A DNA stretch of 64,000 bases from an uncultured Bacteroidia bacterium (GTDB lineage Bacteria > Bacteroidota > Bacteroidia > Bacteroidales > Prolixibacteraceae), in contig CAIVGL010000011.1 of the NCBI GenBank assembly GCA_903905505.1, forward strand, positions 1-64,000, in the 5' to 3' direction. Below the pieces are notes generated by a model. That model did not search any database. It was not told the DNA's origin and worked only from the letters and a program-made list of their open reading frames with translations. Of this stretch, positions 28,949 through 48,047 are shown in pieces. Position 1 is the stretch's first letter, and each line of letters opens with the position of its first letter. Both the position numbers and the translations under genes were made by a program.

Positions 28949-31054
28949 ATGTCTGGATTACTTTCACAAGAGATAAAATTTCTACCTGGAGTTGGGCCCC
29001 GCAAGGCTTTAATTCTAAATCAGGAGCTGAAGGTCTTTACTTTGGGTGATTTAATCTACTATTTTCCCTTTAAATATGTTGATCGCACTAAGTTTTATCT
29101 TATTAAAGAGATTAGCGGCGACTTGCCATATATTCAAGTTAAAGGACGCATCACTGGAATGGAACTCTTAGGCGCTGGTCGAAATCAACGGTTGGTCGCT
29201 TATTTTACGGATGGGACAGCGATTTTAGAACTTATCTGGTTTCAGGGGATAAAATTTGTTAGTCAGACAGTAAAAGCTGGAGTTGAATATATCGTATTTG
29301 GAAAACCAACAGCTTTTAATAATCAGTTTAGTATTGTTCATCCTGAAATTGATGAGTCTAATGCAGAGGCCTCTAAACAAACAGGGTTTATTCAGGCATT
29401 TTACAATACCTCTGAGCGGCTTAAAACGAATTTCATCCACTCACGTAATATTCTTAAGTTTCAATATGTAGCTATTCAGCTTGTGAAGGGGGCAATACTG
29501 GAATCGATGCCTGCTTGGCTTGTCCAAAAGCTCGGGATGATGAGTCTAGAATTGGCACTAATAAATATCCATTTTCCAAGTTCTCCGCAAGCGTTAAAAC
29601 AAGCAGAGTACCGACTAAAGTTTGAAGAGCTGTTTTATATTCAGCTAAAATTACTCCACCTTAAAGAGGATAGACATAAGAAATTCAAGGGTCATATTTT
29701 CGAAAGTGTTGGGTCTAATTTCAACGATTTTTTTTACGATCATCTTCCATTTGAACTTACCAATGCTCAGAAGCGCGTTGTAAAAGAGATTCGCAAAGAT
29801 ATGGGGACTGGAAGGCAGATGAATCGACTTTTGCAGGGTGATGTTGGAAGTGGTAAAACGATGGTGGCCTTGATGTCGATGCTCATTGCCTTAGATAATG
29901 GTTTTCAGTGTTGTTTAATGGCTCCAACCGAGATATTAGCGAATCAGCATTTTGCCTCTATTCGGAAATTCTTAGGGGAGATGCAGGTCAATCTGAAACT
30001 TCTAACTGGATCGACAAAGAAATCTGATCGGGCAATTATACATGAAGAGTTATTAAATGGCAATTTAAATATATTGGTTGGAACACATGCTCTACTAGAA
30101 GACATTGTGCAGTTTAAGTCGCTTGGATTGGTAGTTATTGATGAGCAGCATCGTTTTGGTGTCACGCAGCGTGCTCGTTTATGGCGTAAGAATTACATTC
30201 CTCCTCATGTGTTAGTGATGACTGCAACCCCTATTCCTCGGACCTTAGCGATGACCGTTTATGGAGACTTAGATGTCTCTGTAATCGATGAACTTCCTCC
30301 TGGTCGGAAGCCGATTCATACGGTTCATTATTTTGAGAATAAACGGGCCGAGACCTATGATTTTATCCGTCAGGAGATCTCTCAAGGACGTCAAATATAC
30401 ATTGTCTATCCATTGATCTCTGAGTCTGAAAAGCTGGATTATAAAAATCTAGAGGTTGGTTACGAGCAAGTTGCCAAAGTTTTTCCTGCTCCTAATTATT
30501 CGATAAGCATGGTTCATGGGAAGATGAAACCTGCCCTGAAAGATCAGGAGATGCAACGATTTAAAAATGGCGAGACGCAAATCCTTGTGGCAACGACGGT
30601 TATCGAGGTGGGTGTCGATGTGCCTAATGCCTCAGTGATGATTATTGAAAGTTCTGAACGTTTTGGATTATCTCAACTACATCAGCTTAGAGGTCGGGTT
30701 GGTCGAGGTGCAGAACAATCTTATTGCATGCTGTTAAGCGGCTTTAAATTAAGCGCTGATAGTCGAAAACGTATTGAAACGATGGTTTCTACCAATGATG
30801 GCTTTGAGATCGCTGAAGTGGATATGAGGTTACGTGGACCCGGCGATATTGAAGGTACACAACAGAGTGGTATTGCTTTTGATTTGAAAATTAGTAACCT
30901 GGCTAAGGATGGTCAGATCCTTCAATATGCTCGAGATATTGCCGAATCAATCCTTTCAACAGACCCTTCACTAGATCAACCGCAAAATGAAATTTTAAGA
31001 AAACAGTTAATTGCATTGCGAAAGAATCATTTAAACTGGGGATCAATTAGTTAG
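28949..31054 (+). CDS. recG: ATP-dependent DNA helicase RecG
   Basis: Branch-migration helicase that remodels stalled forks and Holliday junctions. 701 aa: wedge/OB domain (residues about 1-240; LPGVGPRKALIL and DLIYYFPFKYVDRTKFY), helicase domain 1 with QGDVGSGKTMVALM (Walker A), VGTHALLEDIV, DEQHRFGV and MTATPIPRTLAMT, helicase domain 2 with VATTVIEVGVDVPNA and HQLRGRVGRG, and the C-terminal TRG motif region RLRGPGDIEGTQQSG. Complete. Confidence 0.97.
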   Translation: MSGLLSQEIKFLPGVGPRKALILNQELKVFTLGDLIYYFPFKYVDRTKFYLIKEISGDLPYIQVKGRITGMELLGAGRNQRLVAYFTDGTAILELIWFQGIKFVSQTVKAGVEYIVFGKPTAFNNQFSIVHPEIDESNAEASKQTGFIQAFYNTSERLKTNFIHSRNILKFQYVAIQLVKGAILESMPAWLVQKLGMMSLELALINIHFPSSPQALKQAEYRLKFEELFYIQLKLLHLKEDRHKKFKGHIFESVGSNFNDFFYDHLPFELTNAQKRVVKEIRKDMGTGRQMNRLLQGDVGSGKTMVALMSMLIALDNGFQCCLMAPTEILANQHFASIRKFLGEMQVNLKLLTGSTKKSDRAIIHEELLNGNLNILVGTHALLEDIVQFKSLGLVVIDEQHRFGVTQRARLWRKNYIPPHVLVMTATPIPRTLAMTVYGDLDVSVIDELPPGRKPIHTVHYFENKRAETYDFIRQEISQGRQIYIVYPLISESEKLDYKNLEVGYEQVAKVFPAPNYSISMVHGKMKPALKDQEMQRFKNGETQILVATTVIEVGVDVPNASVMIIESSERFGLSQLHQLRGRVGRGAEQSYCMLLSGFKLSADSRKRIETMVSTNDGFEIAEVDMRLRGPGDIEGTQQSGIAFDLKISNLAKDGQILQYARDIAESILSTDPSLDQPQNEILRKQLIALRKNHLNWGSIS

Positions 31055-31136
31055 GCTTTTGATCCGCTGTTTATTAGTGATTCAATTCTTGTTGTGAAAC
31101 TCATTTGTCGATATGTTTACATTTATACCTCTTTTA

Positions 31137-31170
31137 TTGTTTTTTTGTTAAAACAAAAAACCTACTTTTG
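31137..31170 (+). promoter_or_regulatory. candidate promoter of the MgtE-like/NRAMP-like operon
   Basis: TACTTTTG at 31163-31170 fits TAnnTTTG exactly; a TTG at 31137-31139 lies 23 nt upstream, the long end of the accepted spacing. The predicted start near 31177 gives a leader of about 120 nt. Confidence 0.45.
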
Positions 31171-31177
31171 CCAAGCA

Positions 31178-31299
31178 AACCAAAATCATTGCATAAATGG
31201 ACGAAGGCCCTACGGATATAATTTTATTAACTCTGATATCGAGGGATCGTTAAGCTACGTTTACGCTCCTTGTAATATCCCAAAATCAAGGAGCTACTC
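31178..31299 (+). promoter_or_regulatory. structured leader RNA sequestering the ribosome-binding site (possible riboswitch)
   Basis: Two stems are visible. Stem A: CCCT-ACG-GATAT (31208-31219) pairs with ATATC-G-AGGG (31236-31245). Stem B: a perfect 8-bp pair GCTCCTTG (31265-31272) with CAAGGAGC (31287-31294), 14-nt loop. The 3' arm of stem B contains AAGGAG, 6 nt before the ATG at 31300. An alternative pairing GGGAT (31243-31247) with ATCCC (31277-31281) would enclose the left arm of stem B and open stem A. The pentamer CTACG occurs twice (31210-31214, 31255-31259). Strong Shine-Dalgarno sites are uncommon in this phylum, so a buried one suggests translational control. I could not match it to the M-box, yybP-ykoY or NiCo consensus as I remember them. 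Confidence 0.5.
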
Positions 31300-32568
31300 A
31301 TGACATCAATCACTACATTTTATTTAAGCCGCATCATTGGTCTACGTGCAACCGGTTCTAATGGTAGTTTCCTTGGCGTGGTAAAGGATCTGTTGGTAGA
31401 TGCCGATTCATCGAATTCACCTACTGGTCATCCGGTTTTAAAAGGAATTAAATTAAAAACGAAACTCGGCGGTGCATTTTATTCTTTTCAAAATTTTCAT
31501 GTTGAAAAGGATAATGGAAAGTTGAGAATTATCTGCGACCAATTATTAGACCTCTCTACCGAAGAATTAAACCATAGTCTCCATTTAGTTGAAGCTGTTC
31601 TGGACAATCAGATTGTTGATTTGAATGGACGCAAACTCGTTCGGGTAAACGACGTGAGATTAGTGACGATTAATAGTGAGACCTTTGCCGTGGCCGTTGA
31701 TATTGGCATTGAAGGCCTATTGCGTAGAATTGGAATCGTTAAGCCCTTGATGTCTATCGCTAGCCTATTCGGAGGGACAATACCTGCTAAGTTTATTCTT
31801 TGGGAAGATGTAGAGACGATTGATTTCTCCAATTTAAATATTAAACTTTCTAAGAGTTATTCTAAACTTCAGACTCTCCATCCTTCTGATCTAGCTGATA
31901 TTATCGAAGATCTTGGTCGTAAGGCTAGTGCCGAAGTTTTCTCTGCATTGGATGAAGAGAAAGCGGCTGATGTTATGGAAGAGCTCGATAAGGAAACTCA
32001 GCTTCACATTCTGGAGAGTCTTTCCATTGAAAAAGCAGCTGATGTCTTAGATCGTATGCCAGCTGATGAGGTCGCTGATATCTTGGATTCCTTAGAAGAC
32101 GATAAGGTAGAGCTGTTGCTTAACGAGATGGAGAAGGACACTTCTCAAGAAGTACGTGAGTTATTGGTATATCCTGATCATACGGTGGGAAGTATCATGT
32201 CATCAGAGTATCTCTCCTTTAGTGAAAATACGACCATCGAAGAGGTTCTTACAGAACTTCGAACCAATCAGCCTGAATTTGAAACATTATATAACTTCTT
32301 CGTGATTGATGAACAGGAAGTTTTAATCGCAACCTTCTCCATTCGGGATGTTGTTGTTTCTGCTCCTGATTTGCAGTTGAAGCAGATTATGAAGCCATCT
32401 CCTGTTCATTTAATTGATTATCAAAAGATTAATGAGATTGCTGAGATAGTTTCGAAATATAACTTGTTGGCAATCCCGGTTGTTGATAAAAATAATGTCC
32501 TCAAAGGAATGGTTGTTATTGACGACGTTATTGAAGATTTAATAAAGAAACGTAGGACAAATAAATAG
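31300..32568 (+). CDS. cytosolic PRC / MgtE_N / CBS-domain protein without transport domain
   Basis: 422 aa, no transmembrane segment. Residues about 1-85 and 100-180 look like PRC-barrel-type modules (IGLRATGSNGSFLGVVKDLL and LVRVNDVRLVTINSETFAVA). Residues about 190-290 are the MgtE N-domain of repeated helical units (LHPSDLADIIEDLG, KAADVMEELDKET, KAADVLDRMPADEVADILDS). Residues about 295-415 are a CBS pair (DHTVGSIMSSEYLSF, MKPSPVHLIDYQKINEIAEI, LLAIPVVDKNNVLKGMVVID). In MgtE these two domains sense Mg2+ and gate the pore; here the pore is missing and an NRAMP-like transporter follows 10 nt downstream. I infer it regulates that transporter. Confidence 0.9.
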   Translation: MTSITTFYLSRIIGLRATGSNGSFLGVVKDLLVDADSSNSPTGHPVLKGIKLKTKLGGAFYSFQNFHVEKDNGKLRIICDQLLDLSTEELNHSLHLVEAVLDNQIVDLNGRKLVRVNDVRLVTINSETFAVAVDIGIEGLLRRIGIVKPLMSIASLFGGTIPAKFILWEDVETIDFSNLNIKLSKSYSKLQTLHPSDLADIIEDLGRKASAEVFSALDEEKAADVMEELDKETQLHILESLSIEKAADVLDRMPADEVADILDSLEDDKVELLLNEMEKDTSQEVRELLVYPDHTVGSIMSSEYLSFSENTTIEEVLTELRTNQPEFETLYNFFVIDEQEVLIATFSIRDVVVSAPDLQLKQIMKPSPVHLIDYQKINEIAEIVSKYNLLAIPVVDKNNVLKGMVVIDDVIEDLIKKRRTNK

Positions 32569-32578
32569 GGGATTAGTC

Positions 32579-33829
32579 ATGTTTAAGAATAAGAAGTCAT
32601 TTTTTCAGAGGCTGGGGATCTTTCTGGCAATCCTTGGTCCGGGCATCATTACAGGAAGTGTGGATAATGATGCTGGTGGAATAACAACTTATTCGGTTGC
32701 TGCTGCTCTATATGGCTATAATCTGATCTGGACATTAATCCCCTCTTTTATTGTATTGGTCGTTATCCAAGAGATGAATGCTCGAATGGGTATTGTAACT
32801 GGTAAAGGATTGGCTGATTTGATTCGCGAGAATGCAGGTGTTAAAATTACTTTCTTTATTTTTATTGGTTTACTGATTGCCGACATTGGCAATACAACCA
32901 CTGAATTTGCTGGCGTTGCTGGTAGTATGGAGGTCTTTGGAGTGAATAAGTACATCTCCGTTCCAGTGGTAGGCTTTTTAATTTGGTTTCTTGTTGTTAA
33001 AGGGACCTATAAAATAGCTGAACGAATTTTTCTGCTCTTTAGCGTCTCCTTATTAATGTATGTTGTTTCTGCCTTAATGGGTAAACCGCATTGGGGGGAA
33101 ATAGGACAAGCGGTATTGCACCCTCAAATGGAACTCAATACGCAAAGCTTGGCTATGATTATTGGGATTATTGGTACAACGATAGCCCCATGGATGCAAT
33201 TTTATATGCAGTCATCGGTGATCGAAAAGGGATTAAAGATGAAACAATTCAAATACACTTTAATTGATATTGTTGTTGGCTGTATTGCAACCGTAGTTGT
33301 GGCTTTCTTTATCATGGTGGCTTGTGCTTCAACCTTACATGAGAACGGGATTCAAATCAATGAAGCTAAAGATGCAGCTTTAGCTTTAAAGCCACTTGCT
33401 GGTGCATTTGCTTCTCAACTTTTTGCATTTGGATTGTTTATTGCCTCTATATTTTCGGCTACGATATTGCCATTGGCTACAGCTTTTTACGTCTGTGAGG
33501 CTTTCGGATTTGAGGCTGGTATTGATAAAAAATGGGATGAGGCTAAAGAATTTTACGTTCTATATACCGGAATTTTAATTATTGGAGCAGCTATAATTTT
33601 AATTCCTAATGCACCTCTAATTAAAATCTCCCTCTGGACACAAGTTATTAATGGAATGTTGCTTCCAGTAGTGTTGATCTGTATGATTTTATTGGTGAAC
33701 AACAAGAAAATCATGGGCCAATATGTCAACAATTGGTTTAATAATCTTATTGGATGGTCGGCCGTAATTGTCTTGGTTGTGCTTTCTATAATTCTATTGT
33801 TATTGCCCTTGTTTTCCCATTCTACCTAA
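32579..33829 (+). CDS. NRAMP-like divalent metal transporter lacking canonical metal-site motifs
   Basis: 416-aa inner-membrane protein with about 11 hydrophobic helices and the LeuT-fold layout of the SLC11/NRAMP family. In TM1 the family motif DPGN is replaced by Asp29-Asn-Asp-Ala (GPGIITGSVDNDAGG), and in TM6 the metal-binding MPH is replaced by Ala203-Pro-Trp (GTTIAPWMQFYMQSS). Loss of the TM6 methionine removes the soft ligand that selects Mn2+/Fe2+. NRAMP-related Mg2+ transporters (NRMT type) are known to lack it, so Mg2+ is a plausible substrate. Co-transcribed with the MgtE_N/CBS protein. Confidence 0.88.
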   Translation: MFKNKKSFFQRLGIFLAILGPGIITGSVDNDAGGITTYSVAAALYGYNLIWTLIPSFIVLVVIQEMNARMGIVTGKGLADLIRENAGVKITFFIFIGLLIADIGNTTTEFAGVAGSMEVFGVNKYISVPVVGFLIWFLVVKGTYKIAERIFLLFSVSLLMYVVSALMGKPHWGEIGQAVLHPQMELNTQSLAMIIGIIGTTIAPWMQFYMQSSVIEKGLKMKQFKYTLIDIVVGCIATVVVAFFIMVACASTLHENGIQINEAKDAALALKPLAGAFASQLFAFGLFIASIFSATILPLATAFYVCEAFGFEAGIDKKWDEAKEFYVLYTGILIIGAAIILIPNAPLIKISLWTQVINGMLLPVVLICMILLVNNKKIMGQYVNNWFNNLIGWSAVIVLVVLSIILLLLPLFSHST

Positions 33830-35369: not shown

Positions 35370-37025
<1,656 letters not shown>

Positions 37026-46775: not shown

Positions 46776-48047
46776 TTAAATGGTTGTCCAAGGACCACGC
46801 ATCGGCTGATGGATTAAGCGATTTGCAGCCTCGTCGTCGATAAACACTTGTTTGTCAGGATCAAAATTCAATGTCCGTCCTAGTCTAATAGCTAAAATAC
46901 CCATGTTAACTAAGGTACATGAACGATGACCATTCATCTCATTTAAGGCAAATTTTTGTCTTGTTCTTACAGATTCAGAGAACGTTGTAATTCGTGGTTC
47001 TGGATCTGGGAGTGTTTCGATAAACTGTTTAATGTTTGGAATGGTAGATTCAAATCCTTTAAAGATTTTTCCGTGAGGTCCTTCGATATAAGCAGCATCT
47101 TTATCTTTGTTTTCGCCATCAAGGATTATCTTGCAGCCATCAGCGTAGGTGTATTCAATTCTGCGCCATACGCCAACTGCATCCTCATGTTGTTGTGGAG
47201 CGTCCACTTCAACTTTTACAGGGCTAGTATTGTCTTTTCCAAGGAAGTATTGTACTGGATCAAGGTAGTGTTGACCCATATCGCCTAAACCACCACCATC
47301 ATAATCCCAATATCCACGGAAGTTTGTATGTACACGTTTCGCATTATATGGACGATGAGGTGCAGGACCTAGCCAGAAATCATAGTCTAACTCTTCTGGA
47401 ATTGGTTCTGGTGATAGGTTGTTTTCACCACGCCAGTAGAATTTCCAGTCGAAACCTGTAATTCCACTTACTGTTACCTTTAAAGGCCATCCTAATATCC
47501 CACTCTCGATCACTTTTTTCAATGGTTTAACATCTGTTCCTAAACCATAGAAATTATCTTTAAATCGGAACCACGTGTTTAAACGGAACATCCGACCATG
47601 TTTGTTAACCTCTTCAACTACCCGTTGTCCTTCGCCAATGGTACGAGTCATTGGTTTTTCACACCAGATATCTTTACCTGCACGAGCAGCTTCAATTGCC
47701 ATTAGACCATGCCAGTGAGGTGGTGTTGCAATATGCACGATATCTATTTCGGGGCGAAGTAATAGTTCGCGATAATCATGAAATGTAGCTACGTCATTTG
47801 GAATTAGTGATTTAGCTAGTTGAAGATGTTTTTTGTCGACATCGCAAATAGCCACAACTTTGGTTCCTTCATATTGAATATGGCCGCGACCCATTCCTCC
47901 GGTACCAATAATCGCTTTAGTTAGCTGGTCGCTCGGTGCAATAAACCCTGGTCCACCAAGGGCATGACGTGGAATAATCATCATTCCTGCAGCTGCTGCA
48001 GCTGATGCTTTTAGAAATGTTCTACGATTAGGGGAATTTTTATCCAT
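46776..48047 (-). CDS. Tat-exported Gfo/Idh/MocA family oxidoreductase
   Basis: 423 aa. Twin-arginine signal at the N-terminus (NRRTFLKASAAAAAGMMII). NAD(P)-binding Rossmann domain follows (TKAIIGTGGMGRGHIQYEGT), then the family motif IDIVHIATPPHWHGLMAIEA and GKDIWCEKPMTRTIGEG with the catalytic-type Lys, then the C-terminal alpha/beta domain (LGDMGQHYLDPVQYFLG). I chose the ATG at 48047, which gives the Tat signal; a TTG lies 45 nt upstream. Periplasmic Gfo/Idh enzymes often carry tightly bound NAD(P). Next to DUF1080 proteins such enzymes are candidates for glycoside 3-oxidation. Confidence 0.93.
   Translation of the reverse strand: MDKNSPNRRTFLKASAAAAAGMMIIPRHALGGPGFIAPSDQLTKAIIGTGGMGRGHIQYEGTKVVAICDVDKKHLQLAKSLIPNDVATFHDYRELLLRPEIDIVHIATPPHWHGLMAIEAARAGKDIWCEKPMTRTIGEGQRVVEEVNKHGRMFRLNTWFRFKDNFYGLGTDVKPLKKVIESGILGWPLKVTVSGITGFDWKFYWRGENNLSPEPIPEELDYDFWLGPAPHRPYNAKRVHTNFRGYWDYDGGGLGDMGQHYLDPVQYFLGKDNTSPVKVEVDAPQQHEDAVGVWRRIEYTYADGCKIILDGENKDKDAAYIEGPHGKIFKGFESTIPNIKQFIETLPDPEPRITTFSESVRTRQKFALNEMNGHRSCTLVNMGILAIRLGRTLNFDPDKQVFIDDEAANRLIHQPMRGPWTTI

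Follow-up and report, generated by a model that had tools for sequence, protein, structure and literature searches.

The leader ahead of a Mg2+-transport operon in the 64,000-nucleotide stretch of Bacteroidales DNA analysed here (the window) probably works as a translational attenuator controlled by a leader peptide that is sensitive to Mg2+. Two computed features point this way, namely an early acidic/proline ORF ahead of a Mg2+ transporter and mutually exclusive helices that a ribosome on this upstream ORF (uORF) could gate. The uORF (MDEGPTDIILLTLISRDR, 18 aa; 31197–31253, forward strand, stop TAA at 31251–31253) is identified from the sequence and its orthologs and opens with the codons Met-Asp-Glu-Gly-Pro; an earlier sequence-only reading of this DNA missed it, and it is the most conserved element of the leader. 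Four segments on the same strand make up the predicted switch: segment 1 (GGCCCTACGGATAT, 31206–31219), which lies within the uORF and is predicted to fold onto segment 2; segment 2 (GATATCGAGGGATC, 31235–31248), an anti-anti-Shine-Dalgarno (SD) strand at the uORF end whose proposed ON-state partner is segment 3; segment 3 (GCTCCTTGTAATATCCC, 31265–31281), the anti-SD strand, whose partner is either segment 2 or segment 4; and segment 4 (ATCAAGGAGC, 31285–31294), the SD arm, which carries AAGGAG at 31288–31293 and is supported by 3:4 co-evolution. The 2:3 and 3:4 helices are mutually exclusive, both using segment 3. Upstream lies a putative Bacteroidota-type promoter (31137–31170, forward strand) with TTG at 31137–31139 and TACTTTTG at 31163–31170 as a -7 box of Bacteroidota type, from which transcription is expected to start at about 31177–31180. 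The motif TAnnTTTG is found no more than 60 nt 5' of the uORF ATG in 87 of 100 leaders, most commonly at a spacing of 33–35 nt, and the window's uORF ATG (31197) lies 34 nt past the first base of TACTTTTG.

The leader follows recG and precedes two genes on the forward strand, which the sequence-only reading had taken for a Mg2+-type operon, an assignment that protein comparisons bear out. Gene 1 (31300–32568, 422 aa) encodes an MgtE_N and CBS protein according to Pfam (MgtE_N 3.7e-24, CBS 1e-13) and PDB matches, the best of which is the MgtE cytosolic domain 2yvy (3.7e-31); judged by these matches, it resembles the cytosolic part of MgtE minus the channel. Gene 2 (32579–33829, 416 aa) belongs to the Nramp family and has EleNRMT (7qia) as its top PDB match at 361 bits, compared to 86.8 bits for the runner-up, an MntH-type Nramp. 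NDAGG and GTTIAP are common to gene 2 and 7qia in their alignment and fit DxxG in TM1 and TxxA/T in TM6, the signature given for NRMTs in PMC8806188. By sequence, gene 2 is NRMT-like, with Mg2+ as its predicted substrate; one NrmT-group protein with an adjoining MgtE-like gene, that of A. capsulatum, is reported as a likely Mn2+ transporter (PMC4072509). Further along the same strand, 1.6 kb past the transporter gene, is a YbiT-like ABC-F ATPase gene (window 35412–37025), whose PRK15064 match of 615 bits falls under that model's cut-off of 762.

The leader ORF accompanies gene 1 well beyond the window. By protein search, 16 of 18 genomes of the genus contain gene 1, and in all 15 with upstream DNA an ORF of the form MD[ED][GE]P[AT] is present. 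At E 1e-60, gene 1 occurs in 31 of 140 family, 25 of 247 order, 7 of 395 class and 4 of 296 phylum genomes, sets that overlap and that each count the window's own genome. Three loci without upstream DNA (L016, L030 and L031) and five duplicates were dropped before counting, and L065–L079, judged copies of loci already counted, were left out. Among the 61 distinct orthologous loci found by protein search and having usable upstream DNA, 57 carry an acidic leader ORF 93–126 nt upstream and four (L046, L060, L063 and L064) lack one. Together with two pattern-found loci, this gives a set of 63 in which a leader ORF lies within 200 nt in 59, compared to a mean of 0.75 and a maximum of 4 in 100 shuffles.

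The peptides encoded by these 59 leaders start with MDEGPA (23), MDDGPA (10), MDEGPT (6), MDEGPD (5) or MEEGSS (4), and the starts seen once include MDPEPA, MDPYPS, MDGDPA, MDSDPA and MDDDPG; in these outliers (MDPEP, MDPYP, MDGDP, MDSDP and MDDDP) the bases change while the acidic residues and proline are kept. Uncorrected for relatedness, the entropies at codon positions 1, 2 and 3 over the 59 leaders are 0, 0 and 0.64 for codon 2; 0.34, 0.43 and 1.34 for codon 3; 0.21, 0.60 and 1.74 for codon 4; and 0.36, 0 and 1.09 for codon 5, with codon 6 (0.85, 1.03 and 1.09) having a small third-position excess. Since the third positions of codons 2–5 vary most, it is the amino acids that are conserved, not an RNA motif. 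When the pattern-found leaders are counted too (100 in all), residue 2 is Asp in 95 and Glu in 5, residue 3 is Glu or Asp in 95 and residue 5 is Pro in 79. Downstream of this start, the uORF ends differently in the window and in its relatives L003 and L004: the window has an additional T that shifts the frame, so that the stop is TAA at 31251–31253 (18 aa) and not the TGA within CCTGATAT (12 aa). A CTACG repeat noted earlier is present twice, but it is not a general feature and is kept only in these two closest relatives.

Several structural elements had been proposed from the window alone. The perfect 8-bp stem between GCTCCTTG (31265–31272) and CAAGGAGC (31287–31294) is there, as is AAGGAG (31288–31293) 6 nt ahead of the ATG at 31300, and GGGAT (31243–31247) is complementary to ATCCC (31277–31281), a pairing whose co-evolution was measured on the whole segments 2 and 3. 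The upstream stem between CCCTACGGATAT (31208–31219) and ATATCGAGGG (31236–31245) can pair, and the minimum-free-energy fold of the leader (-25.0 kcal/mol) holds both this stem and the 8-bp one. The stability of the whole leader is mild and not significant (z -1.5; equalled or bettered by 16 of 200 shuffles), so that folding energy alone makes no case and comparative evidence must make it.

We therefore rely on a comparison of 69 representative leaders less than 80% alike, reduced from 96, in which the energies of cognate duplexes were set against those of pairs from different species; the pairing tests excluded four leaders that lie over 135 nt from their gene. With fixed windows, the 2:3 helix has a cognate energy of -12.80 versus -7.90 kcal/mol (z -15.1; 67 usable leaders of 69), and the 3:4 helix one of -13.16 versus -9.10 kcal/mol (z -14.2; n=69), values reached in 0 of 5000 permutations in either case. 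The 3:4 helix was retested in this way because the first test was biased by a choice of segment 3 that relied on its match to segment 4. NrmT and CorA leaders taken apart give the same result for both helices, and the seven MgtE leaders support 2:3 and 3:4 weakly (47 and 279 of 5000 permutations). In the 69 leaders, no co-evolution was found for the pairings 1:2, 1:3, 2:4 and 1:4, nor between segment 3 and either the 28 nt before the uORF or its first six codons; five control pairings within these tests were not significant. A regulatory leader that hides an SD in a two-state switch, as the sequence-only reading had suggested, is thus upheld across diverse leaders by the co-evolution of 2:3 and 3:4. 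The upstream 1:2 stem was rejected as a general part of this switch, since 1822, 453 and 432 of 5000 permutations were as low for the NrmT, CorA and full sets, respectively; it is perhaps lineage-specific.

The expectation that orthologous leaders would contain covarying stems holds in these alignment-free tests and not in a column-based count, in which both helices fell below the shuffle mean in an alignment (A1) of 25 close relatives including the window. In several rows the SD hairpin slips by a few bases, a shift that a column count cannot track. In the same alignment more cells pair than in slid versions, an excess that is expected because the structure was taken from the window.

The position of a ribosome on the uORF would determine which helix can form. 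In 53 of 69 leaders, half or more of segment 2 lies under a ribosome that terminates at the uORF stop; with the ribosome at codon 5, this holds for 7 of 69. In transcripts ending before the SD, a ribosome at codon 5 allows at least five expected 2:3 pairs in 65 of 69 leaders and a terminating one in 9 of 69; for the window, the expected numbers are 16.1 and 1.2 pairs, respectively. The pre-SD transcript also forms 2:3 without any ribosome (mean 10.8 pairs), and completed translation would therefore be the OFF signal. Once the window leader is complete, 3:4 is the preferred helix at equilibrium for every ribosome position modelled, with an unpaired probability for AAGGAG of at most 0.01. Because the equilibrium fold of the finished leader always hides the SD, the switch must, in the model, be kinetic. 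Over the 69 leaders, SD exposure is only modestly greater upon abort (0.33 versus 0.21), being higher by more than 0.1 in 24 leaders and lower by more than 0.1 in two.

From these data, we infer that the uORF is translated and that its translation responds to Mg2+ in a defined direction. Ribosomes would start on the uORF at the codons for MDEGP. With ample Mg2+, the ribosome would reach the stop codon and cover segment 2, so that segment 3 would pair with the SD (3:4) and the operon would be OFF. When Mg2+ is scarce, the acidic/proline nascent chain would destabilise the ribosome at codons 2–6, leading to a pause or drop-off, after which the free segment 2 would capture segment 3 (2:3) during RNA synthesis and leave the SD open for translation of the MgtE_N-CBS and NRMT-like transporter genes. 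Mg2+, the signal guessed from the genes alone, is likely the right one, read by a translating ribosome, as we propose, rather than by an RNA aptamer.

A Mg2+-dependent abort on MDEGP is proposed because the anatomy matches that of Salmonella mgtQ and E. coli MgtL. PMC8092293 describes mgtQ as an 8-aa ORF with Asp2, Pro4 and Glu5 that controls mgtB through 1:2/3:4 versus 2:3 pairing, and reports by experiment that its acidic residues are required for mgtB. The two systems share a very short ORF with early acidic residues and proline, alternative helices and a ribosome-binding site hidden in 3:4 and freed by 2:3, and mgtQ control is translational, as we propose for the Bacteroidales leader. They differ in that mgtQ lies between mgtC and mgtB and has a working 1:2 helix, whereas here the genes are others, the ORF has 18 aa and 1:2 is not conserved; the leader described here also belongs to another phylum, has its own putative promoter, serves four transporter classes and has starts such as MDEGP or MDDYH. 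With genes and length that differ and a 1:2 helix that is unsupported, it does not belong to mgtQ proper by homology. For E. coli MgtL, PMC11282234 shows by experiment that the same logic operates through Rho, low Mg2+ causing ribosomes to drop off at an EPDP motif. The mgtL-mgtA leaders of E. coli and Salmonella likewise combine an acidic/proline start with a downstream Mg2+ transporter, but they act by Rho-dependent transcription termination, whereas the target here would be the SD (PMC11282234, PMC11552253). By analogy, the Bacteroidales leader would thus work like mgtQ and mgtL, and we do not claim homology to either. We found no report of acidic leader peptides before Mg2+ transporters in Bacteroidota in the open-licence literature, which leaves absence unproven; the principle is known, and what looks new is the phylum, the four-class breadth, the class of sequence and the SD context.

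The same leader could be read as a metal-binding riboswitch, with a 5' aptamer for Mg2+ or a different divalent ion and an ORF that is there by chance. A metal-transport operon downstream and a two-hairpin fold would suit this, and there is a precedent in M-boxes, which are found ahead of related MgtE-fragment/nrmT operons (mostly those of Clostridia and Deltaproteobacteria) and so place the same kind of gene pair behind a Mg2+-answering 5' leader, a response that is proposed for the leader described here; the M-box is an aptamer RNA mostly with a terminator, whereas this leader has no Rfam M-box match (PMC4072509). The conserved 5' part of the leader, however, is the codon-conserved acidic ORF: codons 2–5 vary at third positions and conserve acid and proline, no co-evolving helix was found in the 5' part and none of the switch segments co-evolves with it, and CorA leaders share little beyond ATGGAYGA and the layout. 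Rfam covariance models gave no match in the window at the gathering score, a permissive scan of 31050–31400 returned two matches (E 4.1 and 4.6), both to eukaryotic families, and the scan of 20 chosen leader loci (see below) returned one tRNA and nothing else; the sequence-only reading had doubted a fit to M-box, yybP-ykoY and NiCo layouts, and no Rfam family matches the leader. Following the codon analysis and the Rfam scans we dropped the riboswitch, which that reading had favoured, as the main interpretation and regard it as quite improbable.

Leader-peptide attenuation could in principle answer a signal other than Mg2+, such as ribosome stress, polyamines, the state of an ABC-F protein or bL31, or initiation efficiency, given that the anatomy suits anything that stalls or drops ribosomes early. 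The nearby YbiT-like gene would fit, given that in E. coli the ABC-F protein EttA acts at the acidic MgtL codons (PMC11282234), but the leader accompanies four unrelated Mg2+ transporter classes and is absent at 22 of 22 distant MgtE paralogs, which makes another signal unlikely. That the short ORF encodes a small membrane or regulatory protein acting in trans on the transporter, with the hairpin only setting their ratio, is suggested by the hydrophobic tail of some leader peptides (MDEGPASILFINLI); this is very improbable, given that only the first 5–6 residues are kept, the peptides span 8 to 27 aa and differ at their C-termini, and the window's C-terminus departs from that of its closest relatives by a one-base shift. 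Control by a Mg2+-sensitive leader peptide is the reading that we favour.

Leaders of this kind also precede other Mg2+ transporters. Within the order, the pattern TTTG-N(12-42)-ATGGAYGANGGNCC has 65 matches in 60 of 295 genomes versus 39 for the reversed pattern, and because the reversed pattern also matches often, the number of matches is weak evidence and it is the genes behind them that matter. Among 30 pattern loci listed (L081–L110), 21 lead into a Mg2+ transporter, six lie inside ORFs of at least 62 aa and were set aside, and three do neither; no plausible gene was found behind L098 and L108. The genes downstream of 20 regions chosen from the pattern matches encode CorA (11), MgtE (5), the nrmT operon (2), a Mg2+ P-type ATPase (1), which scores above two NCBIfam cut-offs, and an OprB porin (1), with Pfam used to check six of the 20.

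Since a pattern search is biased, CorA and MgtE loci were then searched by protein. The final criterion for an acidic leader was an ORF within 260 nt with residues 2 and 3 acidic, or residue 2 acidic and at least three D/E/P. In the order, 24 of 30 CorA loci have an acidic leader, one of them 253 nt upstream, and six have none; the starts include MDEGP, MDEVP, MDDYHPER and MDDSNP. Among 30 MgtE loci listed from 51 matching genomes, four of eight close MgtE have an acidic leader, a fifth (L164, MKDDP) falls outside the final criterion, and no acidic leader was found at any of the 22 distant MgtE paralogs. These counts follow a criterion that was widened after a first look at the data: the first one (ORF of 6–35 aa, at least three D/E/P in residues 2–6) gave 19 of 30 for CorA, 6 of 8 for close MgtE and 0 of 22 for distant MgtE, with two of the leaders so counted (L139 and L163) looking spurious, while a looser one (residue 2 acidic, at least two D/E/P) adds one distant MgtE, L189. 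A search of the class identified 15 new CorA loci, one of them with an acidic leader and from the same order, three others with an acidic leader (4 of 15 in all) and 11 without. Across the phylum, the pattern has 12 matches, among them the window's own, in 11 of 193 genomes, versus 27 for the reversed pattern, and none of these matches except the window's leads into any of the four transporter queries, so the MD[DE]GP form is mainly an order-level trait. The presence of the same kind of leader before four Mg2+ transporter classes points to a common ribosome-built Mg2+ sensor.

The output of the proposed switch poses a puzzle. Bacteroidia ribosomes are reported in PMC9976891 and PMC8710568 to be SD-blind, with the anti-SD held by bS21, bS18 and bS6, which calls into question the last step of our model, an SD-driven start. 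These reports note strong SDs for Bacteroidia rpsU and rpsR, that of rpsU being read by ribosomes without bS21. The leaders described here resemble rpsU and rpsR in having rare strong SDs in an SD-blind class, and differ in that rpsU and rpsR are ribosomal-protein genes while here the SDs belong to Mg2+ transporters in a predicted leader-peptide switch. Among the 52 window ORFs of at least 150 aa, gene 1 alone has AGGAG or GGAGG no more than 20 nt before its first ATG, with the qualification that first ATGs may not be the true starts. These motifs are found in 56 of 59 NrmT, 23 of 34 CorA and 6 of 7 MgtE leaders versus 3 of 22 distant MgtE and 1 of 100 uORFs. Matches of at least 8 bases to what we take to be the anti-SD tail occur in 36 of 59 NrmT, 8 of 34 CorA, 1 of 7 MgtE and 2 of 22 distant MgtE loci (shuffles, 0.6%), and the window's SD matches this tail over 6 bases. 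These genes may be read by ribosomes whose anti-SD is free; otherwise, the SD arm would mainly serve to hide the start region.

A bolder proposition, which we put forward tentatively and consider rather doubtful, is that Bacteroidales share a Mg2+ regulon in which acidic leaders span all four known bacterial Mg2+ importer classes and whose SD output is unreadable by ordinary Bacteroidia ribosomes, such that expression is doubly gated and SD use is a dedicated stress channel and not a relic. With such double gating, abort of the peptide at low Mg2+ would open the SD, and starts there would fall to ribosomes whose anti-SD is exposed, such as those without bS21, which are perhaps commoner at low Mg2+. 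If the leader-peptide model itself is true, a Mg2+-sensing principle of enteric bacteria would also exist, newly arisen or retained, in a distant phylum, where it would form a regulon at the level of the order and tie CorA, MgtE, MgtA-type and NRMT importers to one ribosome-based sensor. An M-D-[DE] uORF with an anti-SD hairpin would then be a simple mark for annotating Mg2+ genes and would help to predict which NRAMP-like genes move Mg2+, and the purpose of the rare strong SDs in SD-blind Bacteroidia would become testable.

Several further observations concern individual loci. The leader MDEGPATRLLTVSMER (L103/L120) precedes an OprB-family porin in genome G203, which also has an nrmT leader, and the porin might be part of the Mg2+ regulon. 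The window's genome, a 2.9-Mb draft, encodes a second CorA (L218; G000:C126:50011-50880, 364 aa from the first ATG) without an acidic leader, and the window itself contains a second TTTG-N-ATGGACGA match at 47323–47355, two matches being at chance level (22 of 100 shuffles). Lastly, at five of the 11 leaderless class CorA loci, all five outside the order and four from one family (L197, L198, L199, L200 and L205), the CorA start is preceded at 7 nt by an ATG in another frame, and the ORF beginning there, M(D/N/E)DD..., runs over the corA start and is perhaps another form of the same control.
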